From NCBI RefSeq assembly GCF_029457495.1, contig NZ_CP120361.1, positions 1,240,001 to 1,304,000 of the forward strand: a DNA stretch of 64,000 nucleotides, in the 5' to 3' direction. A model generated the notes under the pieces. That model was not told the origin of the DNA. It worked only from the letters and a program-made list of their open reading frames with translations, and ran no database searches. Every line of letters begins with the position of its first letter. Position 1 is the stretch's first letter. The translations under genes and the position numbers were made by a program. This document shows, in pieces, positions 7,339-43,764 of this stretch. The DNA is from Chelativorans sp. AA-79 (GTDB lineage: Bacteria > Pseudomonadota > Alphaproteobacteria > Rhizobiales > Rhizobiaceae).

Positions 7339-7484
7339 GGGCGCACCTCGAAGATTAGAACGCAACCGGGAAAACAGATTCGATACCCAATGAGCAAGAA
7401 GAGGTCGAACAAAACTGATGTTTCTCGATAATTGGGCGGCCAAATGCGTTTGGTGATCTCGGCCCGCATTCTAACAACAAACAT

Positions 7485-8960
7485 CTATCGCTCAACCACC
7501 GGCAGCGGTTTTCGGGCCGGCCCGTGGATAACCGATCCGTCCGCGGTGAAGATCGAGCCGTGACAGGGGCAGTCCCAGGTCCGGTCCGCATTGTTCCAGG
7601 TGACGGTGCAGCCTTTGTGGGTGCAGCTTGCGGAAAGCGTGTGGAGGCCGCCGTTCTCGTCCCGCCAGGCGGCGATCTTCTCCTCGCCGCGCACGAGCAC
7701 GCCTCCCTGGCCGGGCTCGATCTCATCGAGGCTGCGCACAATGGACTGGCTGTCGCCGCTCTTGTGGAAATCCTCCGGATAGGGCCGCGTCGGATCGTAC
7801 AGCGCTAGCCACGGATTCGGGCGTCCGGCGATCCGATCGGCGATCATCATGCCCACTGCCGTGCCGTTGCTGATGCCCCAGGCGTTGAAGCCCGTGGCGA
7901 TATGGAATCCCGCGGCCTCTTCCGGATCCGGCTCCCCGGCATAGGGCACGCGGTCGGCTGTATCATAGTCCTCGTTGCACCAGCGCCACAGCGCTTCGCC
8001 AACCGGCAGGTGTGCGCGCGCCCATTGTTCGAGCTCCACGAAACGGGCCGCCACATTGCCGTCCTGGCCGGTCCGGAAATGCGGACCGAGCGCGACCAGC
8101 ACAGGGCCCGCGGCATCACGGCCGGTGCGCAGCGAGCGCGAAGGCTCTTCCACGGTGATGAACATGCCGTCGATGATCGCAGGGTCATCGATGCGGAAGG
8201 CTATGGCGACATGGCTCCTCGGCTGTGTGCGGTGCGACATGCCGACCGGGCTCTTCACGGTCATATTGGTCGCCACCACCACGTTTTCCGCGTGTACGGT
8301 GCCGCCGTCGGTGACCACGCGCCAGCGGCTCGCGTCCTCGATCAGGCGTGCACGGCTGTTCTCGAAGATCTGTCCGCCACGGGTCTTCACCATGGCGGCG
8401 AGGCCGATCAGATATCGCGCCGGGTTGAACTGCGCCTGATCAGGAAAGCGAAGGGCGCCGGCCGTCTCGAAGGGAAGGGGAGCGCGGTCGAGAACCTCCG
8501 CTTCGAGCCCAAGGCTGCGCGCGGCCTCTGCCTCCGCCTCGATCCTGGGGCGGATCGCAGGATCCCGCGTGTAGGCATAGGCGGATCTTTCCTCCAGGCC
8601 GCAGGAAATGCCATGCTCGGCGACCCAGCTTCTGATCTGCCCGGCGCCGGCGCTGTTCGCCTCGGCGTAGTCGCGGGCGCGGTCCAGCCCGATCGCGTCG
8701 ATCAGGTCCCGATAGATGAGCCGGTGCTGCGTCGTGATCTTGGCCGTCGAGCGGCCCGTGACCTGGCGGCCGACCCGCAGTCCCTCGACAACGATGACGG
8801 AGCGGCCCGCTTCGAGGAGCCGCAAGGCTGTGGTCAGGCCGACAATGCCCGCCCCCACCACCACCGTCTCGGCATGAATGGAGCCGTCCAGGGATGGGTA
8901 TTCGGCCGCTTGCGCGTTTTCCGTCCAGCAGCAGCCTGGTTTTCCCGAGAGCGCGCTCAT
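7485..8960 (-). CDS. FAD-dependent oxidoreductase with C-terminal Rieske [2Fe-2S] domain
   Basis: A 491-residue fusion. Residues 30-400 form a DAO-type FAD oxidoreductase, with the dinucleotide-binding GAGIVGLTTALRL near residue 36. The C-terminal 100 residues form a Rieske domain whose ligands are seen in CTHKGC (446-451) and CPCHGS (464-469), giving the Cys-His/Cys-His pattern. No signal peptide is evident. It overlaps no neighbour but starts 4 nt after the PEBP-family gene and precedes the BCCT transporter gene. The substrate of this widespread DAO-Rieske family is not established; an amine or N-methylated substrate would suit the transporter, but this is speculative. Confidence 0.88.
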   Translation of the reverse strand: MSALSGKPGCCWTENAQAAEYPSLDGSIHAETVVVGAGIVGLTTALRLLEAGRSVIVVEGLRVGRQVTGRSTAKITTQHRLIYRDLIDAIGLDRARDYAEANSAGAGQIRSWVAEHGISCGLEERSAYAYTRDPAIRPRIEAEAEAARSLGLEAEVLDRAPLPFETAGALRFPDQAQFNPARYLIGLAAMVKTRGGQIFENSRARLIEDASRWRVVTDGGTVHAENVVVATNMTVKSPVGMSHRTQPRSHVAIAFRIDDPAIIDGMFITVEEPSRSLRTGRDAAGPVLVALGPHFRTGQDGNVAARFVELEQWARAHLPVGEALWRWCNEDYDTADRVPYAGEPDPEEAAGFHIATGFNAWGISNGTAVGMMIADRIAGRPNPWLALYDPTRPYPEDFHKSGDSQSIVRSLDEIEPGQGGVLVRGEEKIAAWRDENGGLHTLSASCTHKGCTVTWNNADRTWDCPCHGSIFTADGSVIHGPARKPLPVVER

Positions 8961-24103: not shown

Positions 24104-24557
24104 GACGTCCCTCTTCGAAAGCATCTCGGTCGCACCCGGAACGTTCCTCCGCGCCACCTTGTTCCGGCTTCCTTTCCGGGCTTTTCCGGCAGCGCCGGAG
24201 ACAAGGCGTTGCGAATCAGGGGAAACGCAGCAGAAGCGGCACGCGCCACAATTTTGCCGGGAAGAAGGCGCCGGATAAGCGGCGCCAGGGTGTAGCCGCT
24301 AAGCCGCTGTTAAGCATGCGCTGCCCGCTCGGACGATTTTTTCCGACCTTCACATGACTTTTGTGAAACCGGCGAAGTATTCTGAAATACATCTTCCGCC
24401 GAGTATGCCTTCCTCCCCGTGCGGAGTTGTCCGTACGGGGGTTTTTGTCGAGGCTGGGTGATTCGCGTCAGGCAACAGGCGCGGGCCGAGACAGGTGGCG
24501 GCAAGCAACAGCTGAAGAAGCCCTCTTTCGGACGACTCGTTTCGAGGGGGCAATTGC
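24104..24557. other. 454-nt leader/intergenic region before the giant surface gene
   Basis: No credible protein gene is seen. The region holds a dyad TTCACA-N7-TGTGAA (24349-24367), a possible operator, then an intrinsic terminator (24415-24446) that lies 112 nt before the giant gene's ATG. After the terminator the sequence continues to a GAGGGGG ribosome site 7 nt before the ATG at 24558. A terminator inside the leader fits either the end of a small RNA starting in this region or an attenuator controlling the giant gene. Confidence 0.5.
24415..24446 (+). terminator. Intrinsic terminator in the leader of the giant gene
   Basis: An 11-bp stem (CCCCGTGCGGA with TCCGTACGGGG, one G-U pair), a GTTG loop, and a following GTTTTTG run make a strong rho-independent terminator on the plus strand. 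No protein gene on that strand ends just upstream; the nearest upstream gene is on the other strand. It should therefore end a small RNA or act as an attenuator. Confidence 0.75.
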
Positions 24558-27500
24558 ATGCGGAATGCATTTTCGCTGCGCGCTGTCGCGCGCCGTCTGG
24601 TCGACTACTTTGCTCGCGCAGCGAGGCCTCCACTCATCGACCCGCTTCCGACGGCGGTGATTTCCGAATCCATCACAAGGGTGACGTTGCCTTGTCGCGT
24701 GCGCTCCGGGATGGCTGGTTTGGCTATTTCCGTTGCTGCCACCGCGGTGCTTTGGAGCGGTAACAGCCAAGCGGTGGAGGCGCCCTCGCAGGCGTGGCCG
24801 TCCGCGATCTCGGGAACTGGTGCCACTGTTGGCGCCACGCGAACCTTCACGTGGGGAAGGCCCCTCCCTTATGGCAGCCCAAACGTTACCGCGACCCAAA
24901 CCATCACATCGCGGGTGGCCGCGCCATCTGCCGCCGGCTGCCTCTTCATGGGAGGATCCGGAACGGCCTCAAGCCTGAACAGCTTTTCGAACGTCGCTAC
25001 CTTCATCGAGCCGGACTTTACCAATTACGGGCTGGTGGCGAACAGCTGTATCGAGGGGAGCAACGGCTACGTCTCCAGCTTCGTCCTCAGCAAGCCGCTG
25101 ATCGCCCCGATCTTCCATCTCTACAATCTGGATGCATCGCGCCTCGCAATCACCGGCACGAGCACCACGGGTGCCGCGATAGGCCTGCAGGCGATCGTCA
25201 GGAACAACCTGATGGATGTCAGCGGCACGACGCTGAACAACACCGTTCAGCCGGCGACCACAAACGGCTGCAACAACAACACCACCGCCGATACCATCAA
25301 CGGTGCCTGCGGCTCCTTCCGTGTGACTGCGTCCTCCGGCCTCATCCAATCTCTGACCTTAAATCACAATGCGACGCCTCCCGTGAGTAACCCCGTCGGT
25401 TTCAATGACGGCAACGCATGGACGCTCTCCTTCCCCACCGCCCCGCTGACGAAGCAGTTCAGCCCCGCCACGATCATGGCGGGAGAGACGAGCCAACTCA
25501 CCTTCTCGATCGCCAATCCCAACCAGTCGGCCTCGGTCACGCTCACGCCGCTGGACTTCACCGACAACCTGCCGGCGGGCGTGACGCTCGCTTCGGCCAC
25601 GGCGACGAACAACGGAAGCTGCGGCACGCCTTCGGTCACTGACGCGTCCGGAGGGGCTCTTGCCGTGGGCGCGACCTCCGTGCGGGCAACCAACATCAGT
25701 GTCGCTCCCGGCGCCACCTGTACGGTCACCGTCGATGTGACGGCAACGGCGGCGGGCAGCTACACGAACGACACCAGCAATATGTCGTCCAGCGTCGGCA
25801 ACCTCGTTCCGACCGGCAGCACAACGCTGACGGTCAACGCGCAGCCGACATTCGGTTCGTGCGACGGGACCATGTATCTGTCTCAGGGCGACCCAACGGG
25901 GCTCTACAGCTTCGACACCTCGTCGAATCCCTTCCCCGTCAATCCGGTCGGCCCTATTTCGGATGTGCTGTATAATGGCACGGCCTACAATCCGGCTGAC
26001 AATTACATTTACGCGATACGCTATACGCCGCCTTCCCCGACGAACGTCCTGCTCAGGATCGGCAGTGACGGCATCGTGGCGGAAATGGGACCCATTGCAG
26101 GTCTGCCGGACGGCGGTGGCTACGGCATCGGCGAGATCGCACCCGACGGGAGCTATTACACCAAGGCGGCGGGAAACAACGGTGTGCTCTATCGCGTGGA
26201 TATCGCAACGCGGACGGCCACTCCCATCACCATGTCGCAGTCGATCAGCGTGCACGATCTGGCTTGGCATGACGGGCTGCTGTACGCGAGCGAAGCCGGC
26301 GGCTCGCTCTATTCCATCAACCCGACGAGCGGGTTCGTCAGCGAGATTGGCCCCACGGGTGTGGCTGGGGCTTTCGGCGCCTTGTACGGTGCCACCAACG
26401 GCGTCTATGGCGGCAACAACAATGGCGGCTTCTACCAGTTCGACCTGACGACGGGTGCCGCGACGCTGATCTCGGACCTGCCGGGTTCGTCCAACAACGA
26501 CGGTGCCAAGTGCGTCAACTCGCCGGTTGAGCTGCCTGCCGACCTCGCGATCACCAAGGACAACGGCGTGACGACCTACACGCCGGGGCTGGACGCAAGC
26601 TACACCATCACCGTCACCAATAACGGCCCCTTCGGCGTGCAGAATGCCCAGATCAGCGATCCGCTTCCCGCCGGCGTCACCATTGCCAACTGGACCTGCG
26701 GCAATGCCACCGGCGGCGCCGTTTGCGGCGCGGCGAACGGCACGGGCGCGATCGACACAACGGCCAACCTGCCGGCGGGGTCCTCCGTCACCTACACGCT
26801 CTCGATGGGCGTTCCGTCGGGCCAGACCGGCAGCTTCACCAACACGGCGACGGTGACCACGCCGGATGGCGTAACCGATACCAACACAGCCAACAACACC
26901 GACAGCGACACCGACACGATGGCGCCGCCGCCTGTCTCCGGCGCGTGCTCGCCGCGTCTGCTGACCCCAGCCTTGTCCTACACGCTCGCGCCATTCAGTG
27001 TCTCCGGCACGGTGCAGAGGTCGGGCGCCCCCAACGGGTGGAATCCCGACAATCCGTGGTCGACCTTTGGCGGGAATTATGTCTTCCGGTGGACCTTCAA
27101 CCAGCCGGTACCGGCAAACTGGATCCAGTTTGCCGTTTACGATGTCGGCGGCGGGACGGCCTATCCGACCACGCCGCCCTCGATCAGTGTCTCGCTGGCG
27201 GGCGGCACGGCAACCCCGGCGGACTTTTCCATCGTTCCGGACTCCCAGCCCATCATGAACGACATGACCTACAACGCCTCCACGGGCGCGCTGGGTTACG
27301 TCACTTCGAGCGATGGCAGGAAGGCGATCGCCACGCTGCGGGGAAATTCGGCGGATACCGTCACCTCCATCACCATCACCGCCAACAATATCGAGATCGG
27401 TGACCATATCGCCCACCGGCTCTTTGTCGCTCCGGCCTGCCTGACCGTCGCGAAGGTGAGCCAGGACGGCACGGGCAGCTTCCAGATCGACCAGACGAAT

Positions 27501-30500
27501 GTGGTGCAGGCGAACGGCACCGCCGTACCCTCGACCACGCTGACCACCACGGAGGCGGGCACCGCCGTCTCCTCGCCCGCCTACAACTCTGTTCCGGGCA
27601 CGGACCTGACGCTCAGCGAGGTCGTGCCGGCGGGCTGGAACCTCGCCTCGGCTGTCTGTACCGACCAGAACGCGGGCTCCACCGGCAACCCGACCGTGAT
27701 CGGCAGCTTCACGTCGCCCACGCTCACCATTCCGGCAGCCAATGTGCGGCCGCAGTCCGATATCCAGTGCCTGTTCACAAACGAGCAGAGCCAGGTCGAT
27801 CTCGCCATCACCAAGGATGACGGCTCGGCCACCTACAGGCCCGGCTTCGACGCCACCTATGCGATCGTCGTCACCAACAACGGCCCGGACGGCGTCGCGG
27901 GCGCGCAGGTGAGCGACCCGCTGCCGGCGGGCATCACCGATGCGACCTGGACCTGCGGCGGCGAGACCGGCGGCGCCGTCTGCGCCGTACCGAGCGGTAC
28001 GGGCGCGATCGACACGACCGCGGATCTGCCCGCCGGCGCTTCCGTCACCTACACGCTCAGCATGAGCGTGCCCGCAAGCTTCAGCGGCAGTCTCACCAAC
28101 ACCGCAACGGTGAGCGTGCCGGACGGGATGACGGAAGCCGACACGAGCAACAACACGGCCAGCGATACGGACACGATGGAGATCCCGCCCAGTTCGGGCG
28201 CCTGCTCGCCGCGCCTTGTGACCGCGGGCAATACCTTCACGCTGTCGCCTTTCCCGATCACCGGCACCGTCCAGAAAACCGCTGGCGCGTGGCAGACCGA
28301 TCAACCCTGGGCGACGCAAGGCGGCGATGACTACACGATCCGGTGGACCTTCTCGCAGCCGATTCCGGCGAACTGGATCCAGTTCGCAGTCATCGATGTC
28401 AACGAAACCGGCACAGCCGATTACGATGCGGTCCCGCCGGTCTTCACCGTCGGGCTGGGTGCAGGGAGCACGGCTACGACAGCCGATTTCTCGCTCGCTC
28501 GAGGGGATCTGACCTATTCGGGCGGTGCCGTTCGCTTCAGTCCGGGCGGGCCTTACCGGCAGTCGGGCTTCGTGCACGGAACCAGCGCCGACACGATCAC
28601 CTCTATCAGCATTACATCCAGCAACGTCAGCAGTGGCGACAACATTGCCAACTCGCTTTTCGTCCGCCCGCCCTGCCTGACGGTCTCGAAGGTGAGCGAA
28701 GGCGGCACGGGCAGCTTCCAGATCGACATGACGAATATCGTTCAGGCGAACGGCACCGCCGTTCCCGCGACGACGCTGACGACGGCCGAAGCGGGCACCG
28801 CCGTCTCCTCGCCCATGTATTTCGGGCGGGACACGCGGACGGATATCACGCTCAGCGAGGTCGTGCCGGCCGATTGGGCGCTCCAGACCGCCGTCTGCAC
28901 CGACCAGAATTCCGCCAATACCGGCAATCCGACGACGATCGGCAGTTTCGCCGCGCCGGCGATGACCATCCCGGCCGCCAATGTGAGGCCGGAGGCGGAC
29001 ATCCAGTGCGTCTTCACCAACGAGCAGCGCACGGCGGACCTTGCGATCACCAAGGATGACGGCGCCACCACCTATGCGCCGGGAACGGATGTCGTCTACA
29101 CGATCGTGGCCACGAACAACGGCCCGGACGACGTGACCGATGCGGCGATCGACGATCCGCTGCCGGCCGGCATCACGACGGCGAATTGGACCTGCGGCGG
29201 CGAGACCAACGGCGCCGTGTGCGATGCGGCGAACGGCACCGGTGCGATCGCGACCACGGCCGACCTGCCTTCAGGCGCGTCCGTCACCTACACGCTCACC
29301 ATGAGCGTGCCGACCGATTTCACGGGCGATCTCGTGAACACGGCGACCGTCACGGCGCCCGCCGGCGTGATCGACGCCACTCCCGAGAACAACGCCGCCA
29401 CCGATACCGACACCCCGGCCGATCCGGTCGTGAGCGTGCGCAAGGAACTCATCGGCGAAAGCATCACGACGAACGATCTCGCCGAGCCCGGCGAGGTGCT
29501 CACCTATCAGGTGACGATCACCCATGAGGGCGGCTCGGCCTTCGGGGATTTCGAGTTCATCGAGAACATCCCGAACGGCGCGACCATGACCCGCGTCGAC
29601 GGCGCGAGCGGCTTCACGGACCCGGTTACGGGGTCGTCCACCATCCTTCTCACCGTGGCCGAAGTGCCGGTGGGCGGCGAGGCCGTGGTCGAGATCGACC
29701 TGACGGTGGCTGCGCCCATTCCGCTCGGCACCACGGATATCACCAATCGCATCAGCGGCGGCGACGTGCCGGAAGACTGCACGCAGTGCTCGGTGACGAC
29801 GCCCACGCCGCCCTATACGCCGAACCCGCCGGACACGATGTCCTGTTCGACCTCCGGTGCCTATTTCAACACGGCCTATGACGGCGCCGGCGGCATGAAG
29901 ACGAGCGGCTTCGACAATTACTGGCAGGTGGCGCTGACGCCGACGCCAGTAACCGGCGCACCTCCGGCAGGGCTCACCTGGGGCGCCGCGACGGTCGTCA
30001 GCAACCCGCCGGCTGTCTATATCACGTCGCCCTTCGGCAATGCGAACTGGATCTCCAACAGTTCGACAGCAATGCACCCCAACCCCACCGTCAACTACGA
30101 CATCTTCTACCGTTATCAGTTCAATCTCGATCCGGCGGTCGATCCGGCAAGCCTCGACCTGGACATGAGCTTCTATGCCGACAACTCGGTCTACCAGGTC
30201 TGGGTGAACGGGGTGGCGCAGAACATCCAGTCGGGCTTCGGCGGGGCAGACCCCTACTTCTACGGCGGATTCGGCGCCGGCGGTGTCGCTATCGGCTCCA
30301 TGAACGGTGCCTGGCAGACGGGCTTCAACGAGATCATCGTCCACGTGAAATCGGGCCCGGGTGCCCAGGCCTTCATGGCGCAGATCAATTCGGAGGCGAT
30401 CTGCCAGCCGAAGGTCACGCTGCGCAAGGTGGTGACGAACGACGACGGCGGGACGAATGCCGCCACCGACTTCACGCTGCGCGCCACCAACAACGCCACG

Positions 30501-33500
30501 CCCGCCGATGTGATCGAAGGCCCGACGGGTGATGCGGCCGTCACCAATGTCTCGATCCCGGCGGGCACCTACACGCTGGCCGAGGACAGCTTGCCCGGCT
30601 ACGCGCCGAGTCTTTACTCCTGCGCCGTCGACGGCGGTGCGACCGCGCCCGTGGCCGACAACCAGCTGACGCTCGCCAACGGCCAGAACGCCATCTGCAC
30701 GATCACCAATGACGACTTCGTGCCGGTGAAGGCGCTGACGGACGAAAGCGGCTCGATCCCCGACGTGGCCGAGCCCGGCGAGACGCTCACCTATACGGTG
30801 ACGCTCACCAACGACGGCGACAGCGACGCGTTCTACGATCTCACCGACAATATCGACGACCTGACCACCTATGTGGGCGGCTCGACGGCGGGAACCGCCG
30901 GGGCCGCGGAGCCGACGGGCACCGACCCGCTCACCTGGGCCGGCATCACCATCCCGGCCAACAGTTCGGTGACGGTGGAGTACCAGGTCACGGTGGCCGA
31001 CACGATCCCCGCCGGGGTGACGGAGATCGGCAACGTGGCCTACAGGACCGGCGATCCGCAGCCTGATTGCGACGTCACGCCGACGCCACCCAACTGCGTC
31101 AAGGTGCCCGCATCGGGCGCGGCCACCCCGTCGAAGAACCTGACCGGCGAGAGCGGCTCCATCCCCGATGTGGCCGAGCCCGGCGAGACGCTCACCTACA
31201 CGGTGACGCTGACGAACAGCACTGCCCAGCCTGCGGTCCATGACCTGGTCGACCATATCGACGGCAACACCGGCTATGTGGCGGCCTCCGCCACCGTCGG
31301 CGGTGTGGCACAGGAGCCCTCGGGCAGCGGTCCGCTGACCTGGGCCGATATCGTCGTGCCGGCGAACGGGACGGTCGAGGTGATCTACCAGGTGACGGTT
31401 GCTAACCCGATCCCCGACGGGGTGACGGAGATCCGCAACGCGGCGACGGATGACTGCACGGCCAATCCGGACGCCTGCGTCACCACACCGACGCCCGGGA
31501 CGGCGGTGCCCTCGAAGCAACTGACGGGCGAGAGCGGTTCGGTAACCGACGTTGCCGAACCCGGCGAGACGCTGACCTATACGGTGACGCTGACGAACGG
31601 CGGCACGGTCGGCGCCCTCCACGACCTCGTCGACAACATCGACGACAACACGACCTATGTGGCGACGTCCGCCACCGTCGACGGCGTGGCACGGGAGCCT
31701 TCGGGCACCGATCCGCTGACCTGGGCGGACATCGTCGTGCCGGCGAACGGCACCGCCGAGGTGATCTACCAGGTGACGGTGGTCACCCCGATCCCCGCCG
31801 GGGTAACCACCATCCGCAATGCAGCCACCGACGATTGCACGGCGAATCCCGACGCCTGCGTGGAAGTCCCCGCGCTTCAGGAAACGGATCTCTCGATCAC
31901 CAAGGACAACGGCCGGGATATGCATTTCCCGGGCGAGTCCACCTATACGATCGTCGTCACGAACAACGGCCCAAATGGCGTCGCGGCGGCCGAGATCAGC
32001 GATCCGCTGCCTGTGGGCATCACCCAGGCGACATGGACCTGCGGCAACGTGACCGGCGGCGCCATCTGCGGCGCGGGGAGCGGCACGGGCGCGATCGACA
32101 CCACTGCCGACCTGCCGGCCGGCAGTTCCGTGACCTATAGCCTGACGATGACAGTACCCTCGGGGATCATCGGCGATATCACGAATACCGCCACGGTGAC
32201 CCTTCCCAACGGGGCCGCGGACATCGACGAGAGCAACAACACGGCGACCGACACGGACGAGCCGCAGCCCGACTTCGGCACCTGCGACGCGACCATGTAT
32301 CTGGGGCAGAACCAGCCGACACAGCTTTTCCGGTTCGACACCTCCTCAAATCCCTTCGTCGTTGCACCCGTGGGCACGCCATCGTCGCACAACTACAACG
32401 CCGTCGCGATGAACCCGGTCGACAACTACATCTATGCGCTCGTCTCCACGGCCGGGACGGCCGGAACATTGGGGCGCATCGGCAGCGACGGCAGCCTGGC
32501 CGTGCTTGGGCCGGTTGACGGCCTGGGCGTCAATGCCATTGCCGGCGAGATCGGCCCGGATGGCACCTATTACGTGGTGGCCGGCGGCAGGCTCTACAGC
32601 ATCGATATCCCCACCATGTCGGCGGATTCCGTCCCGTTGAGTCAAGCCGTCAACGGCCATGACCTCGCATGGCACAACGGGCTGCTTTACATAGCCGCGC
32701 CGAATAATGGCCCGCTTTACATGATCAATCCGTCGAACGGCCAGGTTTCGACCTCGACCGGTACCACCGGCGTGTCCGGCACCTTCGGCGGCCTGTTCGG
32801 CGCCCCCAACGGCGTCTTTGGCAGCAACAACGATGGCGGCTTCTACCGGTTCGACCTGGCGACGGGTCAGGCGACGCTGATCTCGAATCTGCAGGGTTCC
32901 AGCAACAATGACGGCGCGAAATGCGTGAATACGCCGCTGGATTTCCCGGTCGATCTGGAGATCGCCAAGGACAATGGCCGTGACATCTACGCGCCCGGGG
33001 AGACGACCTACACCATCACGGTGTCGAACAACGGCCCCTTCGGCGTGCAGAACGCGCTCGTCAACGACGCGCTGCCCGTGGGCATCACCGATGCCGAATG
33101 GACCTGCGGCACTCCTGTGAACGGCGGAAGCTGCGGGGTGCCGAGCGGCACGGGCGCAATCACCGATGCGCGCGTGAACCTGCCGGTCGGCGCCTCCGTC
33201 ACCTTCGAGCTGACCATGACGGTGCCGATGAGCTTCACCGGCGACCTCGTCAACACGGCGACAGTGACGAGTCCGTCCGACTCTCCGGACACCGACACCA
33301 GCAACAACACGGCGACGGATACGGACACCGCGCAGCCGGACTTCGGCATGTGCACCTCCACCATGTATTTGGCTCAGGGTGACCCGACCACGCTTTACTC
33401 AGTCAGCACCTCCTCCAACCCCTTCAGCTATCCAGCCGTAGGTACCGCATCGGTCCCGTATAACGCCGCCGGGTACAATCCTGTCGACAACTATATCTAT

Positions 33501-36500
33501 GCGCTCAGACTGGATCAAAGTGCGGACAACTATCGCCTGCTGCGTGTCGGCAGCGACGGTCTTGCGATTGATCTCGGGGTGGTTTCCGGTGGCGGGATCA
33601 ATGTAGGCGGCGGTCTGATAAGCGGCGCGGGGATAGCGGCAGGCGATATCGCGGCCGACGGCTCTTACTACGTCAAGCACAACAGCAGCACCAGCCAGAT
33701 GTGGCGAATCGACCTGTCCACTCGGACTGCGACGCTCATCACGTTGTCCCAACCGGTCGCAACGGCAGATATGGCCTGGTCCAATGGCCTGCTCTATGCC
33801 CACGACCCGAATACGGGAATGGTTTATTCGATAAGTCCCTCCGGGGCGGTGAACCCGATCGGGCAGTCGGGCGTTACCGCCGGTGGTTTCGGGGCTATGA
33901 TCGGTGCCAGCAACGGTGTTTTCGGAGCTCTGAATTCCGGCGGCTTCTACAAGTTTGACCTTGCCACCGGGCAGGCGACGCTGATCTCCAGTTCACCGGC
34001 CACGACGAGCAACAATGACGGCGCAAAGTGCGCCACCACTCCGCTGGACTTCCCCGTAGACATCGCGGTCACCAAGGATGACGGCAGCCAGACCTACGCG
34101 CCGGGTGGCGACATCGTCTACACGATGGTGGTCACCAACAACGGGCCCTTCGGCGTGCAGAACGCGCTGGTGAACGATGCTCTTCCGAGCTTCGTCACCA
34201 CAGCGACCTGGACCTGCGGATCTCCCACGGGCGCCGCGTCCTGCGGTGTTGCGAGCGGCAGCGGGAGCATCGTGGATGTGCCGGTGAACCTGCCGGTCGG
34301 GGACTCCGTCACCTTCACGCTCACCATGTCTGTGCCGTCGGACAAGACCGGAGAGATCATCAACACGGTCACCGTCACGACGCCTTCGGGCTCGCCCGAC
34401 ACCAACCCCGACGACAATACGGCGAGAGACCGCGACGTCTATCCGCTGGTCGAGACCGTGAAGAATCTCACCGCCGAAAGCGGCGAGATCCCCAATGTCG
34501 CGGAGGCGGGCGAGACGCTCACCTATACGGTGACGCTCAACAACACCGAGCCCTTCGACATAGAATACGACCTCACGGACAATATCGACGACAGCACCGA
34601 GTATGTGGCCAACTCTGCGAGAGTGGACGGGGTGGCGATAGAACCCGCCGGGCCCGATCCGCTCGTCTGGAGCGACATCGCCATCCCGGCGAACACGTCC
34701 GTCTCCGTCGTTTACCAGGTGCTTGTGGATACACCGATTCCCGACGGGGTGACGGAGATCCGCAACGCGGCGACGGAAGACTGTGCGGCCGCGCCGCAGG
34801 CGTGCACGGTGACGCCGACCCCAGGCAAGGTCACGCCTGACAAGCAGCTGACAGGCGAGGACGGCGGTTCGATTGCGGACGTCGCCGAGCCGGGCGAGGT
34901 GCTCACCTATACGGTGGTGCTGTCCAATGCCGGCGCGGGTGCCACGTTCTACGACCTCAACGACGACATCGACGCACTCACCAGCTATGTGCCGAACTCG
35001 GCGACGATCGATGGTGTGGCGGTCGAGCCGACGGGCACCGATCCGCTCTCCTGGCCCGACATCGAGGTTGCCGGAAATGGCAATGTGACGGTGATCTACC
35101 GGCTGCGTGTGGCCGACACGATCCCCGAGGACACGGAGACGATCGGCAACATCGCCTATGAGGACGGCACGGACCCCAATTGCGACACCAATCCGGATGC
35201 CTCCTGCACGAACACGAATGTGCCGGGCAAGGTCACGCCGGACAAGCAACTGACGGGTGAGGACGGCGGTTCGGTACCGGACGTCGCCGAGCCGGGCGAG
35301 GTGCTCACCTATACTGTGGTGCTGACCAATGCCGGCGCGGGTGCCGCGCTCTACGACCTCAACGACGACATCGACGCGCTCACCAGCTACGTGCCGAACT
35401 CTGCGACGATCGATGGCGTGGCGGTCGAGCCGACGGGCACTGATCCGCTCTCCTGGGCCGATGTCCCGGTTCCGGGGAACGGCACGGCGACGGTGATCTA
35501 CCGGCTGCGTGTGGCTGACACGATCCCCGAGGACACGGAGACGATCGGCAACATCGCCTATGAGGACGGTACGGACCCCAATTGCGACACCAATCCGGAC
35601 GCCTCCTGCACGAACACGAATGTGCCGGGCAAGGTCACGCCGGACAAGCAACTGACGGGTGAGGACGGCGGTTCGGTACCGGACGTCGCCGAACCGGGCG
35701 AGGTGCTCACCTATACGGTGGTGCTGACGAACGCCGGCGCGGGCGCCACGCGTTACGACCTGAACGACGACATCGACGCGCTCACCAGCTACGTGCCGAA
35801 CTCGGCGACGATCGACGGAGTGGCGGTGGAGCCGACGGGCACCGATCCGCTCTCCTGGCCCGACATCGAGGTTGCAGGCGGCGGCAATGTGACGGTGATC
35901 TACCGGGTGCGTGTGGCCGACACGATCCCCGAGGACACGGAGACGATCGGCAACATCGCCTATGAGGACGGCACGGACCCCAATTGCGACACCAATCCGG
36001 ATGCCTCCTGCACGAACACGAATGTGCCGGGCAAGGTCACGCCGGACAAGCAGCTGACAGGCGAGGACGGCGGTTCGATTGCGGACGTCGCCGAGCCGGG
36101 CGAGGTGCTCACCTATACGGTGGTGCTGTCCAATGCCGGCGCGGGTGCCACGTTCTACGACCTCAACGACGACATCGACGCACTCACCAGCTATGTGCCG
36201 AACTCGGCGACGATCGATGGTGTGGCGGTCGAGCCGACGGGCACCGATCCGCTCTCCTGGCCCGACATCGAGGTTGCCGGAAACGGCAATGTGACGGTGA
36301 TCTACCGGGTGCGTGTGGCCGACACGATCCCCGAGGACACGGAGACGATCGGCAACATCGCCTATGAGGACGGCACGGACCCCAATTGCGACACCAATCC
36401 GGACGCCTCCTGCACGAACACGAATGTGCCGGGCAAGGTCACGCCGGCCAAGCTGCTGACGGGCGAGGACGGGGGGGGATACCTGGCGTCGCCGAGCCGG

Positions 36501-39500
36501 GCGAGGTGCTCACCTACACGGTGACGCTGACGAATTCGGGCGCAGCGGCGGCGCATTACGACCTTGCGGACAACATCGACGACCTCACCACCTATGTGCC
36601 TGGCACGGCGATGGTGGACGGCGCGGCGCGGGAGCCGGCGGGCGCCGATCCGCTCACCTGGGCGGACATCCTGGTGCCGCGGGGCAGCACGGTGGACGTG
36701 GTCTATTCTGTGAGGGTGGCGGACACGATCCCGGACGGTGTGACGGAGATCGCCAACGTGGCCTACAAGGACGGCGATCCCGAGCCCGACTGCACGGTAA
36801 CGCCAAAGCCGGACGGCTGCGTGACGGTGCCGACACCCGGAACCGCGGTCCCGTCGAAGGACCTGACGGACGAAGACGGGCTCGTGCCCGACGTGGCGGA
36901 GCCCGGCGAGACGCTCACCTATACGGTGACGCTCACGAATAACGATTCCTCGGCGGCGCTCTACGATCTCAGGGACAATATCGATGCGCTGACGAGCTAT
37001 CTGGCTGGTTCGACCTCGGGCACGGCGAATGCCGGCGAGCCGGATGCGAGCGATGGCGACACGCTGCTGTGGGCCGACATCGTGGTGCCGGCGAACGGCA
37101 GCGTGACCGTGATCTATTCGGTGACGGTGGCGGACGAGATCCCGTCCGGTGTGACGGAGATCAGCAATGTGGCCTACAAGGACGGCGATCCGGAGCCCGA
37201 CTGTTCCGTCAATCCGCCGCCGGACGGCTGCGAGACGGTCCCGACACCGGGCACGGCCACGCCGGAGAAGAACCTGACGGATGAGGACGGACTGGTGTCG
37301 GGCGTTGCCGAGCCCGGCGAGACGCTCACCTATACGGTGACGCTGACGAATGCCGGTCCGGTCGCTGCACTCTATGACCTCAGGGACAATATCGACGCCC
37401 TGACGAGCTATCTGGCTGGTTCCACTTCGGGCACGGCGAATGCCGGCGAGCCGGATGCGAGCGATGGCGACACGCTGCTGTGGGCGGACATCGTGGTGCC
37501 GGCGAACGGCAACGTGACGGTGGTCTATTCGGTGACGGTGGCGGACGAGATCCCGTCAGGCGTGACGGAGATCAGTAACGTGGCCTACAAGGACGGCGAT
37601 CCCGAGCCCGACTGTTCGACAACACCGATGCCGGACGGCTGCGTGACGGTGCCGACGCCCGGCACGGCCACGCCGGAGAAGGACCTGACGGCCGAGGACG
37701 GGCTCGTGGCCGATACGGCCGAGCCCGGCGAGACGCTCACCTACACGGTGACGCTGACGAATGCGGGGTCCGCGGCGGCGCTCTACGACCTCAAGGACAA
37801 TATCGACGACAACACCACCTATGTGGCCGGTACGGCGAGGGTGGGCGGCGCAGTGCGCGAACCGGTCGGCAGCGATCCACTCACCTGGGCCGACATCGTG
37901 GTGCCGGCGAACGACACGGTGGACGTGGTCTATTCGGTCAAGGTCGTCGATACGATCCCGGCCGACGTGACCGAGATCGGCAATGTGGCCTATCGCGACG
38001 GGGACCCCGAGCCTGACTGCACCGTGGACCCTCTGCCGGCGGGCTGCGTGGTGGTGCCCACTCCGGGAACTGCGGTTCCGTCCAAGAGCCTGACGGAGGA
38101 GGACGGCCAGACGGATGGAATTGCCGAGCCGGGCGAGGTGCTGACCTATACCGTGACGCTGACGAATGCCGGCACGGCGGCAGCGCTCTACGACTTGGCC
38201 GACAATATCGACGACAACACCGCCTATGTGGCCGGCACGGCGACGGTGGACGGCGCGGCGGTGGAGCCCACCGGCAGCGATCCGCTCGTGTGGGCGGACC
38301 TGGTGGTGCCGGCCGGCGGGACCCTGGCGGTCGAGTACCAGGTGACGGTCGACGATCCGCTCGATCCGACGGTGACGGAGATCGTCAACCTGGCCTATCG
38401 CGAGGGCGATCCCGAACCCGACTGCGACGCCGATCCGATGCCGGAGGCCTGTGTGAAGGTGCCGGCGCCGGCGCCGGCGGTCACGCTTGAGAAGACGGGC
38501 CGGTTCGCCGACGAGAACCAGAACGGCGTGGCGGACGCGGGCGAGACGATCGTCTACACCTTCACGGTGGCGAACGAGGGCAATGTGCCGCTCGACGACG
38601 TGATGCCGAGGGATGCCGGCCCGACCTTCAACAAGGCAAGGGCAATGGGCGCCTTCTCCGAGATCAAGCCGGTCTCCGGTCCCTCGCCCGTGACGCTGGC
38701 GCCGCAGGGCGAGGACGGTTCGACGCGGGAGTTCACGGCAAGCTACACGCTGACCCAGGTCGATATCGACAATGGCGCGGGCATCGAGAACGGCGTGGAG
38801 AACACGGCGACGGCGCTCGGCTACGCCTTCGGCACGGCGGTCACCGGCGGCATGCCTGTGGAATCGAATGAGGACGTGGCCGTTCTGGCGCTGCCAGCCG
38901 CAGTGAGCGACCTGACGGTGACGAAGATCGCCAATCTGCGCTTCATCCGCCGCGGCGAGCAGGCGCCGTTCACCATCCGCGTGACGAACAGCGGCCCGTC
39001 GCAGGCGACCGGCATCACGGTGATCGACACCATGCCGGCGGGCTTCCGCTATGTGGAAGGCTCGGCCACGGTGGGTGGCGCCGAGGTGACGCCGGAGATC
39101 GCCGGACGGCAAATCCGCTTCGCCGATGTCGCGGTGCCCGGCAACGGGGAGATCGAAATCCGCCTGCGGCTCCTGGCGCTTTCGACGGCCGGTCCGGGCG
39201 AGCATGTGAACCTCGCCCATGCACAGGATTCTTCCGGCAACAAGCTCACGGCGACGGCGCGTGCGGTGGTGGAGATCATCGTCGAGCCGGTGTTCGATTG
39301 CGGCGACATCATCGGCAAGGTGTTCGATGACATCAACCGCAACGGCTACCAGGACCCGGGCGAGCCGGGTCTGCCGGGGGTCCGCGTCGCCACGGTGAAG
39401 GGCTGGCTCATCACCACGGACGAGCATGGCCGCTTCCATGTGGCCTGCGCCGATCTTCCTGAAGCGCGCATCGGCTCGAACTTCATCATGAAGCTCGACC

Positions 39501-39874
39501 CGCGGACGCTGCCCACGGGCTACCGGCTGACGACGGAGAATCCGCGCGTGGTGCGTCTGACGGCGGGCAAGATGACGGAGCTGAACTTCGGCGCCTCCAT
39601 CGGCCGGGTGGTGCGGCTCGATCTCGCGGCGGAGGCCTTCGTGCCTGGCGAGGCGGAGCTTTCTGCCGAATGGGCCGCGGGCATCGACCAGCTGATCGAG
39701 GTGCTTTCGGCGGAACAGTCTGTCCTGAGGCTCTCCTATGTCGATGCGGCCGGCGACGAGACCCTGGCCGAAGCGCGGGTGAAACGAATGAAGGAGCTGA
39801 TCGCGGACAGATGGCGACGGCGCGGGCGGGCCTATCCGCTGGATATCGAGACGCGCGTGGAGGCGGGGCAATGA
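24558..39874 (+). CDS. Giant secreted DUF11-repeat surface protein with SdrD_B/OmpA-like C-terminus (frameshift at a G8 tract)
   Basis: Read through the frameshift this is about 5,105 residues. A long basic leader and hydrophobic signal (about 52-73) is followed by a unique domain and a DUF11-like domain (to about 430). Three propeller-like modules come next (about 430-655, 2573-2795, 2928-3160), each opening with C-x2-TMYL and closing with NNDGAKC. There are two copies of an SGACSPRL domain (795-955, 1213-1375), each followed by a SpaA-like domain, and one lectin-like domain (1765-1950). More than fifteen DUF11 units include four near-identical 134-residue ones (3424-3959). An SdrD_B-like domain (4910-5005) and an OmpA-like tail end the protein. 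As written, the frame breaks at 36471-36478 and translation stops at 36522-36524. A GAGGGGG site precedes the ATG. The next gene encodes its likely outer-membrane partner. Adhesion or cell-surface scaffolding is inferred. Confidence 0.85.
34827..36434 (+). repeat. Tandem array of four 402-bp repeats within the giant gene
   Basis: Four consecutive units begin at 34827, 35229, 35631 and 36033, each exactly 402 bp (134 residues). A diverged fifth unit begins at 36435. Each encodes one DUF11-type domain opening KVTPDKQLTGEDGG and closing with a C-x7-C pair. Units 1 and 4 differ at only about three positions over their first 300 bases and share wording absent from units 2 and 3 (SIADVAEPG, LSNAGAGATFYDL). 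This points to recent duplication or gene conversion. Such arrays expand, contract and collapse in short-read assemblies. Confidence 0.95.
36471..36478 (+). other. G8 homopolymer at the frameshift of the giant gene
   Basis: Eight G in a row lie where the sister repeats read GEDGGS. With nine G the frame continues as GEDGGGIPGVAEPGEV, an exact-length match to its neighbours. With eight it ends 15 codons later at 36522-36524. A G-tract in a surface-protein gene is the classic form of a slipped-strand phase-variation switch, and also a common sequencing-error site. Confidence 0.85.
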
Positions 39875-42800
39875 AGATCCTTGTCACGAGCATGGTCCGC
39901 TTCGGCCACTTCGAGAAGCCTGGGGTGGGGGCGAGGCATGCCCACGCGAGGGGAGGACCCGACCTGAGATTGCTCCTGCTTGCCGGCACGGCTTTGGCCG
40001 GGCTGATCGCGGCTCCGTCGTTGGCGGCGGCTGAGGAGCCGGGAAAAGACGGCAAGGTGGTGGCCAACAGCGCAGTGCGACCGCTGCCGGTGGGCGAGAA
40101 CACGGAAGCCGAAAGCCCTGCCGACAAGCCTGCCATCCCCTTCATGATCAGTGTTGACGGGGAGACGATCGACAAGAGCGCCGATCCCACTGAGGGCGAG
40201 GCCGAAGGAACACCTGCGGCAGGGGCCGGGGGACCGGCCGTGAAGACCGGGCGCCTGGCGCCCGGCGAGACTCCCTCGGCAAGTTCGGGACCGCCCGCAC
40301 GGCCGGTGGACCGGCAGCGCCGGACGGACGTCTCGCTTGCCGCCGTCGACATCCAGGTGAAGTTCGACGGGTTGGAGGCCGAGCCCATGCTCAACGTCTC
40401 CACCATGCCGGTGGAGCGCACCTACAAGGCCGGCGAGACGGTGACGTTCCTCGCCACCGCGAACTATCCCGCCTTCATCGAGAAGGCGGAGATCCGCATC
40501 CTGCGGGAGGGCCGGGAGAAGGACGGGCCGGTGGCCATCATTCCTGTGGCGGTCAACGCCACAGCGGATTGGGTGATGCCGGATGCGGCCCGGGAAGAGG
40601 AGGGCGACTTCCTCTACGTGCTGCGCGTCTACGATGCCAAGGGCCGATTCGACGAGACCGAGCCGCTCACCGTCGCCCGCTCGGCCAAGGACCTGCCGCG
40701 GCACGAAAAGGCGGAGGCGACCGCGCCGGGCATGGGCGAGGACCGCACGGCGCGGCGCAACATTCCCATCCATGGCGGGGCGGTGACGGTCTACGGCCGC
40801 CATGTGCCGCCCGGCTTTGCCGTTTCCGTGCTGGGCGAGGAGATTCCCCTCGACCCGAACCAGTCCTTCGTCGTGCAGCGTATCCTGCCGCCCGGCGATC
40901 ATGCGGTGAAGGTGGGCGTCAGCGGCCCTTCGAAATCGGGCGGGCTGAAATTTACCCGCGACATCAACATCCCCGACAACGACTGGTTCTATGTGGCGCT
41001 GGCCGATCTCACCATCGGCAAGCGCACGGGCGACGACCATGTCGAGGACGTGCGGCCGGGCGAATATGACGAGGTCTATTCCAAGGGACGGCTCGCCTTC
41101 TACCTGAAGGGTAAGATCAAGGGCAAATACCTGCTTACGGCCGCGGCCGACACGGGCGAGGACGAACTCGACGAGCTCTTCCGCAACCTGGACAGCCAGG
41201 ACCCGCGCCAGATCCTGCGCCGACTCGATCCGGACGACTACTATCCCGTCTATGGCGACGATTCGACCTTCGTCGAGGATGCGCCCACCAAGGGCAAGTT
41301 CTACGTGCGGCTGGAGCGCGGCGACAGCCATGTCAGGTGGGGCAATTACAAGACCGAGGTTTCCGGCACGGAGTTCCTGCGCTCCGACCGGGCGCTCTAC
41401 GGCGCTTCCGCCGTCTACAGGTCCGAAGAGACCACCTCCTTCGGCGAGCGGCGCACGGAAGTGGAAGCCTATGCCGCCCAGCCCGACACGCTGCCCTCGC
41501 GCGAGGAATTCCTGGGTACCGGCGGCTCGGCCTATTTCCTGCAGCGCCAGGACATCGTCGAAGGCTCCGAGACCGTGGCGGTGGAGACGCGCGATCCGGT
41601 CACCGGCCGGGTGCTCTCGCGCCAGGTGCTCGTCTATGGCGACGACTACTCCTTTGATTACATGCAGGGCGTGATCATCCTGCGCCGCCCGCTCACCTCC
41701 ATGACCGGAACGGCAAGCCCCGTGCGCGAGACGGCACTCGGGGGCGGCAAGCTCTACCTGACCGTCAATTACGAGTACGAGCCGGTGGCATCGGACGTCG
41801 ACGGCTATGTCTATGGCGGGCGGGCGCAGCACTGGTTCAACGATCATGTGCGCGTCGGCGTCACCGGCATGGACGATTCGACCGACATGGCCGACCAGAA
41901 GGCCTATGGGGCCGATATCACGCTGCGCCGGTCCGAAAAGACGTGGCTCAAGGCCGAGATCGCCCATTCCAAGGGCCGCGGCTTCGACCTGTCGCAATCC
42001 TCCGACGGCGGACTCACCTGGGGCAATGACGGGGAGGCCTACGACCCGGAAGACGACGAGGGCACGGCTTGGCGCGTTGAAGGCGAAGCGGATCTCCAAG
42101 AGCTCGGCGCGCCCGTGAAAGGCCGCATCGGGGCCTATTACGAGGAGAAGGAGAGGGGCTTCTCAACCCTTTACGACTATGCGGCCGTCAACCGGCGCAT
42201 CTGGGGCGTGGATGGCAAAGTCGACGTGACGGAGAACCTCACTCTCGGCTTCTCCTATGACGACTTGAGTGACGACGACGGCCAGTCGCAGCGCAACGGC
42301 GAAGGCACGGTCTCCTGGGAGTTCGACCGGCACTGGAAGGTCTCCTTCGGCGTCTCCTACACGGAGCTGATGTCGCCCAGGGCGATCGATGCCGGCAAGT
42401 CGGGCTATGACGGCTCGCGCGTCGACGCGGGCGTGCGCGTCGACTACCGTATCGACGAGGACCGGCTGGTCTATGCCTTCGCGCAGGGCACGCTGGACCG
42501 CGCCGACGACATCGACCGCAACGACCGTGCCGGCATCGGCACCGAGTTCAGGCTCACCGACAAGATCGCGCTTTCCGGCGAGGTCTCCTACGGCACGCAC
42601 GGGCTCGGCGCGCTCGCCGGCATCACCTACGATCCGACGGCCAACGACCACTACTATGTCGGCTACAAGCTCGATCCCGACCGCGCCTTCGACCTCGACC
42701 GCGACTACGAGCCCTTCGGCTACGACAAGGGCGCGATCGTCGCCGGCATGAAGCGCACCATGGGCGAGACGACGTCCGCCTATTCGGAATCGACCTACGA

Positions 42801-43719
42801 CATGTTCGGCGAGCGCCATTCGCTGACCCAGACCTACGGCGTGATCTACACGCCCGACGCCATGTGGACGGTCGATGCCGGCCTCGAGATCGGCCGCGTG
42901 CGCGACAATACCGTGAGCGAAGGCGTCCAGCAGGAGGACTTCGACCGCTACGCCCCTTCGCTCGCCATCGGCTACAAGGACGAGGAGGCAGGCATCAAGG
43001 CCCGTGTGCGCGGCGAGGTGCGCATCGAGCGCTCCGACGACGGCACGCGGGACCAGAACACCTATCTCCTCGCCGCGGGCCTGAGCTGGAAGACCAGTCC
43101 CGACTGGCGGCTCCTCGCCCATATCGACGCGGTCGTCTCCGACACCCAGTCCTCCTCGACCTCCTTCGCCAACACCGACTATGTGGAGGCTTCCGTCGGC
43201 TATGCCTACCGGCCGGTCGACAACGAGAAGCTCAACGCGCTGTTCAAATACACCTGGCTTTACGACCTGCCGGGCAACAACCAGCTCATCAGCGGCGCCA
43301 CGGGTGACAGTTTCGCTCCCGCCCAGCGCAGCCACATCGTCTCGGCCGACCTCATCTACGATCTCACCCCGTGGTTGTCGGTCGGCGGCAAATACGGCTT
43401 CCGCTACAGCGAGGTCAAATACCGCACCGGCGGCGGCTCCACCTTCGAGGAGGAGTGGCAGGCCTCGTCCGCCCATCTCGGCGTGCTGCGCGCCGACCTG
43501 CATTTGATCAAGAGCTGGGACGTGCTCATCGAGGGCCGCGCGCTCCACATGCCCGAGGCCGACACCACGGATTGGGGCGCGCTCGCCGCCCTCTACCGCC
43601 ATGTCGGAAACAACTTCAAGGTCGGTGTCGGATACAATTTCGGGCGCTTCTCCGACGATCTCCGCGACCTCACCCTCGACGACCAGGGCGTCTTCCTCAA
43701 CGTCGTCGGCAAATTCTGA
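39871..43719 (+). CDS. Outer-membrane beta-barrel partner of the giant surface protein
   Basis: A 1,282-residue protein starting in an ATGA overlap with the giant gene. An unusually long signal peptide (about 50 residues, hydrophobic core LLLLAGTALAGLIAAPS) precedes a disordered Pro/Glu-rich linker. An Ig-like domain (about 165-270) follows, then a second beta domain (GGAVTVYGRHVPPGF near 305). From about residue 360 the protein alternates aromatic and polar residues as expected of a large beta-barrel, with repeated YDY/GY strands. The final residue is Phe (FLNVVGKF), the usual C-terminal signal for barrel insertion. No TonB box or plug domain was recognised. Export or surface anchoring of the upstream protein is inferred from coupling and topology. 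A terminator follows. Confidence 0.82.
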   Translation: MKILVTSMVRFGHFEKPGVGARHAHARGGPDLRLLLLAGTALAGLIAAPSLAAAEEPGKDGKVVANSAVRPLPVGENTEAESPADKPAIPFMISVDGETIDKSADPTEGEAEGTPAAGAGGPAVKTGRLAPGETPSASSGPPARPVDRQRRTDVSLAAVDIQVKFDGLEAEPMLNVSTMPVERTYKAGETVTFLATANYPAFIEKAEIRILREGREKDGPVAIIPVAVNATADWVMPDAAREEEGDFLYVLRVYDAKGRFDETEPLTVARSAKDLPRHEKAEATAPGMGEDRTARRNIPIHGGAVTVYGRHVPPGFAVSVLGEEIPLDPNQSFVVQRILPPGDHAVKVGVSGPSKSGGLKFTRDINIPDNDWFYVALADLTIGKRTGDDHVEDVRPGEYDEVYSKGRLAFYLKGKIKGKYLLTAAADTGEDELDELFRNLDSQDPRQILRRLDPDDYYPVYGDDSTFVEDAPTKGKFYVRLERGDSHVRWGNYKTEVSGTEFLRSDRALYGASAVYRSEETTSFGERRTEVEAYAAQPDTLPSREEFLGTGGSAYFLQRQDIVEGSETVAVETRDPVTGRVLSRQVLVYGDDYSFDYMQGVIILRRPLTSMTGTASPVRETALGGGKLYLTVNYEYEPVASDVDGYVYGGRAQHWFNDHVRVGVTGMDDSTDMADQKAYGADITLRRSEKTWLKAEIAHSKGRGFDLSQSSDGGLTWGNDGEAYDPEDDEGTAWRVEGEADLQELGAPVKGRIGAYYEEKERGFSTLYDYAAVNRRIWGVDGKVDVTENLTLGFSYDDLSDDDGQSQRNGEGTVSWEFDRHWKVSFGVSYTELMSPRAIDAGKSGYDGSRVDAGVRVDYRIDEDRLVYAFAQGTLDRADDIDRNDRAGIGTEFRLTDKIALSGEVSYGTHGLGALAGITYDPTANDHYYVGYKLDPDRAFDLDRDYEPFGYDKGAIVAGMKRTMGETTSAYSESTYDMFGERHSLTQTYGVIYTPDAMWTVDAGLEIGRVRDNTVSEGVQQEDFDRYAPSLAIGYKDEEAGIKARVRGEVRIERSDDGTRDQNTYLLAAGLSWKTSPDWRLLAHIDAVVSDTQSSSTSFANTDYVEASVGYAYRPVDNEKLNALFKYTWLYDLPGNNQLISGATGDSFAPAQRSHIVSADLIYDLTPWLSVGGKYGFRYSEVKYRTGGGSTFEEEWQASSAHLGVLRADLHLIKSWDVLIEGRALHMPEADTTDWGALAALYRHVGNNFKVGVGYNFGRFSDDLRDLTLDDQGVFLNVVGKF

Positions 43720-43729
43720 CCGCAGCCTC

Positions 43730-43764
43730 GCTCCCGCCAGACCAACAGGCGGGGGCGCTTTTTT
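43730..43764 (+). terminator. Intrinsic terminator after the barrel gene
   Basis: A 9-bp stem (GCTCCCGCC with GGCGGGGGC, one U-G pair), a nine-base loop and a run of six T lie 10 nt after the stop codon. This ends the two-gene surface operon; the convergent panC gene ends shortly beyond it. Confidence 0.85.

Follow-up and report, generated by a model that had tools for sequence, protein, structure and literature searches.

How do Gram-negative bacteria bring giant adhesins built from DUF11 (CLIPPER) domains to the outside of the cell without type I secretion, and how do they hold them there? We know of no established account. The question is raised by two adjacent genes in a 64-kb stretch of the genome of Chelativorans sp. 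AA-79 (contig NZ_CP120361.1, positions 1,240,001 to 1,304,000), which we analysed as a whole and refer to as the window; the genome comprises 5.76 Mb in three contigs. On the plus strand, the gene of a giant repeat protein is followed by that of a protein predicted to form a very large β-barrel. We consider it probable, at roughly 60%, that the locus is a two-component surface-display system in which the barrel exports the giant adhesin, holds it, or does both, by way of a module at the C-terminus of the adhesin.

The giant gene starts with an open reading frame of 3988 residues (24558–36524) and continues in another frame (36410–39874), both assigned from the open reading frames and their Pfam matches. 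Its stop codon overlaps the start of the barrel gene (39871–43719) in an ATGA sequence at 39871–39874. As the original prediction had described, the barrel gene encodes 1282 residues, with a signal-peptide-like start (judged by eye) and a C-terminal Phe. The conserved end of the giant, hereafter the tail, was delimited by alignment, profile and model (38900–39871). It comprises the last DUF11 domain, a terminal SdrD_B-type domain (39308–39601; Pfam, profile and model) and a degenerate OmpA-like end (39605–39871) with a predicted β-α-β-α-β fold. Homologues of the giant vary in length and in their repeats; the last 324 residues are alike, with 43–81% identity in 31 of 32 aligned relatives and 37% in the remaining one.

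Barrels without a DUF11 neighbour, which the original prediction had named as the observation that would speak against a link between the two genes, are few. A scan of the genome contigs yielded 38 loci with relatives of the barrel, and the tail lies upstream in 35 of them, as judged from a 5-kb scan and a longer same-strand stretch (14–15 kb). These 35 include one partial match (L065), one tail spread over two frames (L083) and one duplicate (L074 and L052 lie on the same contig); at L059 the tail is found at 7120–8082. The three loci without a tail are at a contig edge (L054), have a barrel that is short on its 5′ side (L077) or are a fragment (L084). Among 41 relatives, 17 genomes contain the barrel, 18 the tail and 17 both, where some matches are contig-edge fragments (e.g., G002) and a few tail hits cover just SdrD or belong to fusions (G002, G040). 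DUF11 itself is present in 19 of the 41, namely the 17 with both elements plus G026 and G038.

The same association is observed in wider samples, which overlap slightly. Of 397 genomes of the order, 18 contain the tail, 21 the barrel and 18 both (Fisher p ~2e-28, a value that ignores kinship, as do all Fisher values here). Two of the three barrels without a tail lie in long single frames (G040, G351) and the third is a broken copy. This copy (L150, 7162–10252, in G463) is split over two frames, and no tail match was found in its genome. In 289 genomes of the class (E ≤ 1e-5), the tail was detected in 11, the barrel in 11 and both in 8. The tail-only genomes are G152, which is 81% complete, and G131 and G251, both with short SdrD matches; the barrel-only ones are G097 and G284, with single long frames, and G260, with a 31-residue remnant. 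Counting full tails (8) and separate-chain barrels (7), a division defined after the data were seen, both occur together in 7 genomes.

Furthermore, the barrel matches 22 plasmid records, and in all 15 that we inspected the tail profile is directly upstream of the barrel or fused to it. These plasmids span alpha-, beta- and gammaproteobacteria and one cyanobacterium, and include Rhodobacterales, Croceibacterium, the betaproteobacterium Eleftheria, Vibrio campbellii, Acinetobacter haemolyticus (fused) and the cyanobacterium Kovacikia minuta. The partnership of tail and barrel is well supported. The coupling foreseen in the original prediction is strongly supported as well, with one revision: what stays constant is the SdrD_B module at the C-terminus, in most cases followed by the OmpA-like end, and not a giant DUF11 protein as such, since tailed genes of only 704 and 657 residues also precede a barrel (both before the same one, in G436).

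Several individual loci deserve mention. In Chelativorans multitrophicus (L053, 2231–7983), a single barrel has two tails ahead of it, spaced about 4.8 kb, and G009, a genome that looks the same, also has a fused SdrD–barrel protein (L091). Pseudorhizobium tarimense (L052/L074) carries two barrel–tail pairs in opposite orientation, facing each other on one contig and with identical match scores. A Paracoccus alcaliphilus plasmid (L165, 4111–4722) has an upstream gene shrunk to a 203-residue tail beside two transposase genes, next to a full-length barrel. A record named Bacillus subtilis SK6B4 (L076) contains a Pseudochrobactrum-like copy of the pair and is probably a mislabelled or contaminated assembly.

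In some genomes, the two components form a single chain. In G337, stalk, SdrD_B, OmpA-like part and barrel share one open frame of 2079 residues, with the tail just before the N-terminal domain of the barrel protein. Fusions of DUF11 and/or SdrD_B to the barrel, of 1205–4545 residues, are found in G262, G209, G284, G097, G009 and G040, where G097 matched only DUF11 and one of the two G284 copies matched neither; a tail–barrel fusion is present in Acinetobacter as well. The OmpA-type parts differ more. In Croceibacterium, the degenerate end of the giant is followed by an additional OmpA domain that Pfam recognises; in Eleftheria, an intact OmpA domain starts the barrel chain and the giant also keeps its degenerate end. 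In Acinetobacter and Vibrio, intact OmpA is encoded by a separate gene, the Vibrio product being lipoprotein-like with two OmpA domains. The tail match ends after SdrD_B in Vibrio, Acinetobacter and Kovacikia, which match no OmpA-like end and keep the barrel. Because the match ends there in these three and intact OmpA sits in differing places, SdrD_B, the portion of the tail present in all 15 inspected plasmid loci, is its universal element, and the OmpA-type modules are movable.

A model of the tail (predicted local distance difference test score 81.8) contains the DUF11 domain, the SdrD_B domain and the β-α-β-α-β end. In fold comparisons, whose listed matches were taken up by these first two domains, the DUF11 and SdrD_B domains resemble pilins of Gram-positive bacteria, and the DUF11 domain resembles the CLIPPER structure 9IFR. 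The original prediction had recognised an OmpA-like module here. Pfam does not assign it, since the OmpA family (PF00691) matched none of 33 tails and none of 9 further tail ends; the model, a weak profile match (probability 44%, E 2.4e-4) and the alignment of the tail end with the region just before the intact OmpA domain in Croceibacterium are consistent with a distant likeness. Along the tail-end alignment, the OmpA Arg is invariant and the Asp is not conserved. Small secreted-looking stand-alone tails also occur: two in one genome, G000 (contig C1), of 226 residues with SdrD and OmpA-like end (L127, 4830–5507, near 3.55 Mb) and of 146 residues with SdrD only (L126, 1827–2264, near 2.45 Mb). 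SdrD-only genes similar to the latter are present in G003 (L131) and G013 (L132).

The barrel protein is modelled as an N-terminal, mostly β region (residues 131–371; 40261–40983) followed by a very large β-barrel (residues 372–1282; 40984–43716), the latter also indicated by fold comparison. The model has roughly 34–43 strands, with 43 predicted strands of at least seven residues in the barrel part. SprA is a 36-stranded barrel, and among the fold matches listed our model aligns with it over the full length, with 676 residues; the top match among those listed is the usher FimD. Searching PDB sequences with the protein alone gave no match, and the barrel profile gave six weak ones, the best being the KdgM porin (E 0.0032), with SprA not among them.

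To place the barrel in a family, 32 aligned homologues were compared with Pfam (E ≤ 0.1), and 20 families were matched by any of them. A TonB receptor, which the original prediction had set against its own proposal, finds no support in the sequences, as Plug (PF07715) and TonB_dep_Rec (PF00593) are not among the 20; nevertheless, 7 of the 22 plasmid records annotate the barrel as a 'TonB-dependent receptor'. Two-partner secretion is defined by POTRA domains and a ShlB/FhaC-type barrel, with a TPS domain on the partner, and no POTRA or ShlB/FhaC-type match was obtained for the homologues as candidate TpsB proteins. Likewise, the homologues lack matches to Usher (PF00577), in spite of the likeness to FimD, and neither they nor the window pair match the classical autotransporter barrel (PF03797) or the Slam family of type 11 secretion (DUF560). 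The Pfam scans of the 32 homologues gave no match to a SprA family, and no genome-wide search for components of type IX secretion was made.

In the giant, the first frame starts with a long N-terminal extension containing a signal-peptide-like stretch (by eye), followed by Pfam matches to DUF7933, DUF6923 (three stretches), DUF11, SpaA_4, SpaA_2 and repeated DUF7927. The second frame continues with DUF7927 repeats, DUF7507, DUF11 and SdrD_B before the OmpA-like end. DUF11, DUF7927, DUF7933, SpaA_2, SpaA_4 and DUF7507 exceed the Pfam cut-offs, and so does SdrD_B (32.7 bits against 29.7); NCBIfam also matched a DUF11-type repeat and an isopeptide-forming domain. The DUF11, SpaA and SdrD_B modules of the original prediction are thus confirmed, and DUF6923 is matched too. 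Tandem arrays with units of about 402 and 411 bp (34824–38313, plus strand) encode the DUF7927-type domains. Pfam found no TPS domain, Autotransporter family or DUF560 in the giant, and recognised no eight-stranded C-terminal cargo barrel.

A 2025 survey names DUF11 (renamed CLIPPER), DUF7507, DUF7927, DUF7933, SpaA_2, SpaA_4 and SdrD_B among families in which internal isopeptide bonds are known or predicted, and it includes a fibrillar adhesin of a Gram-negative bacterium that carries an OmpA-like anchor (PMC12617251). The giant has such listed families in tandem, in a long protein with a signal peptide as judged by eye. In addition, Lys, Asp and Asn are at matching positions in all 12 uninterrupted DUF7927 units (the Asn in 8 by pattern and in 4 by eye); a 13th unit, split where the frame changes, lies outside this count. 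By our own pattern, the same holds for 6 of 7 DUF11 units. This placement suggests candidate internal isopeptide bonds in the stalk domains. Because of its stalk families and these residues, we assign the giant to the isopeptide-type fibrillar adhesins, a known kind of adhesin of which it is a further member.

Five full-length barrels have no same-strand tail within 14–15 kb upstream (G013, contig C52 of G003, contig C8 of G001, G157 and contig C36 of G262). All five genomes carry tailed genes elsewhere, and the partnership may for this reason also work in trans. G013 has five full-tail genes on other contigs, and no barrel besides the lone one was found in it; in G157 and G262 there are two full-tail genes each, which continue about 120–130 residues past the tail; G001 and G003 have several, some of them linked to other barrels. 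G013, G001, G003 and G004 contain clusters of two or three adjacent tailed genes with no barrel in the sequence retrieved around them. Of the 20 loci retrieved around unlinked or stand-alone tails, L129 alone contained a piece of barrel (222 residues); L116, L121, L124 and L133 lie on short contigs or near contig ends, where a barrel could adjoin.

Trees of both components distinguish two groups, termed class I and class II after the data were seen. In the barrel tree, which included three of the five lone barrels (G013, G003 and G001), these three group with the class II barrels of G004 and G007 (contig C13), with support of 100/100. In the tail tree, whose bootstrap had not settled, a class I clade (99/97) holds all 14 included tails linked to class I barrels. 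Outside it are 15 of 17 unlinked tails, together with both linked tails of class II (G004 and G007, contig C13). These groupings suggest two cognate tail–barrel classes, with barrels that serve unlinked giants. A barrel-linked and an unlinked tail of G004 (L101 and L119) are separated by zero branches in the tail tree, which suggests copying or gene conversion.

In the mechanism that we favour, the giant would be exported by Sec as a fibrillar adhesin whose stalk consists of Ig-like domains from isopeptide families. The C-terminal module (DUF11–SdrD_B, here with a degenerate OmpA-like end) would be a docking signal that is retained at the outer membrane, where it would engage its own very large barrel, encoded downstream. 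The barrel would let the stalk through to the outside and then hold it, giving an autotransporter-like topology divided over two chains. Docking, the direction of export and the surface location of the giant are steps that we infer. Since the tail precedes the N-terminal domain of the barrel in the fusions, the general rules for outer-membrane proteins would put it in the periplasm with the long stalk directed outward, and we therefore favour export and holding by the barrel with SdrD_B as the docking signal. The main rival is a mere anchor: the giant would surface by another route, such as the β-barrel assembly machinery (BAM), and the barrel and the OmpA-like end would only hold its C-terminus at the outer membrane and cell wall. 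OmpA is a cell-wall-binding family, intact OmpA modules are part of the system in four plasmid versions among those examined, and the tail position in the G337 fusion is also what a periplasmic tether would predict. However, a simple anchor would not need so large a barrel, and the tails of Vibrio, Acinetobacter and Kovacikia keep the barrel without the OmpA-like half, so that we regard this explanation as unlikely. The recurrence of OmpA-type modules would also suit a tether that links the outer membrane to the cell wall inside the envelope, with neither protein exposed at the surface. This is improbable, as the stalk families are those of surface fibres (PMC12617251) and an extended chain of so many Ig-like domains should outreach the periplasm. 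Still less credible, and already disfavoured, is the view that the barrel is a common TonB-dependent receptor or porin whose place in the operon of the adhesin is a coincidence, given the lack of Plug and TonB_dep_Rec matches among the 32 homologues, the tail–barrel fusions and the near-exclusive co-occurrence.

A further alternative to a working display system concerns the window copy itself. The original prediction had taken the giant for a single reading unit of about 15.3 kb; it consists of two open reading frames in different frames, which switch at a run of eight G (36471–36478) inside the 402-bp repeat. At the G run, this copy is broken, switched or wrongly sequenced. The change could be a real loss or an on/off state, leaving a truncated giant without a tail and an idle pair here, or a sequencing error. 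G tracts of such length can slip, and the change coincides with the only homopolymer of at least eight in the window (the next longest, G7, is at 14118); moreover, relatives such as L098 (4251 residues) and L097 (3448 residues) hold tail and stalk in one frame, unlike the window copy. Well-scoring domains are, however, retained in both frames on either side of the change, and we consider such an explanation possible but doubtful.

The surroundings of the pair agree with the original prediction in two respects. A terminator-like hairpin with a T run closes the pair at 43729–43764 (plus strand; −23.6 kcal/mol, z −2.34, with 5 of 200 shuffles equally good); it is outside the listing of our hairpin scan, in which the loop limit was 8. 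Type I secretion genes were said to be absent nearby, and no secretion family was found by Pfam among the nine flanking open reading frames scanned. Four of these match COX1, Pantoate_ligase, Pantoate_transf and FAD_binding_2/Succ_DH_flav_C, and five are without a match. A second terminator-like hairpin with a T run is located at 24414–24441, about 117 bases 5′ of the giant start. Long minus-strand open reading frames opposite the GC-rich repeats (25359–28577, 29271–31925 and others) are probably shadow frames.

Among known systems, the CLIPPER adhesins share the stalk families, for example B9T28_05395 of Acinetobacter silvestris, with an OmpA-like anchoring domain toward its C-terminus, and an internal isopeptide bond has been shown for one DUF11 domain (9IFR) (PMC12617251). 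A dedicated barrel partner is not described in the accessible part of that survey, whereas here the terminal SdrD_B and the co-encoded barrel are constant. Type IX secretion (PMC8545088) resembles our pair in having several substrates with a conserved C-terminal module. Its barrel SprA is very large, as our barrel is predicted to be; the present pair differs in its occurrence in Proteobacteria and a cyanobacterium and in the absence of a SprA match by PDB profile search or Pfam. Two-partner secretion (type Vb; PMC5422565) likewise combines, within a single operon, a giant surface protein with an outer-membrane barrel dedicated to it. In our pair, there is no POTRA match, the constant module is at the C-terminus of the giant instead of the N-terminus, and the barrel is far larger. 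Classical autotransporters (type Va) join an N-terminal passenger to a C-terminal barrel, as the fused versions do here, but our barrel has about 900 residues, matches no Autotransporter family and is mostly encoded apart from its passenger. Finally, in type 11 secretion the Slam (DUF560) barrel is encoded near its surface cargo, as here, and DUF11 is mentioned once, in passing, in the accessible part of the source (PMC12282271); our pair has neither a DUF560 match nor an eight-stranded C-terminal cargo barrel recognised by Pfam.

Literature searches for the tail–barrel pair, with most subscription papers outside their coverage, returned no description of it. At the least, the barrel and its C-terminal partner module represent a new version of two-partner display, and they may be a new export system. 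A fuller proposal, to which we give somewhat less than even odds, is an undescribed outer-membrane export system of alpha-, beta- and gammaproteobacteria and at least one cyanobacterium. In it, a SprA-sized barrel would recognise the SdrD_B module at the C-terminus, together with OmpA-type parts supplied in cis or in trans, and would serve one or several isopeptide-locked giants, including unlinked ones. The constant C-terminal module and the constant barrel give named parts to the question of how DUF11/CLIPPER adhesins are exported. The pair would also correct a misleading 'TonB-dependent receptor' annotation, and its barrel could join SprA as a second very large barrel for export across the outer membrane.

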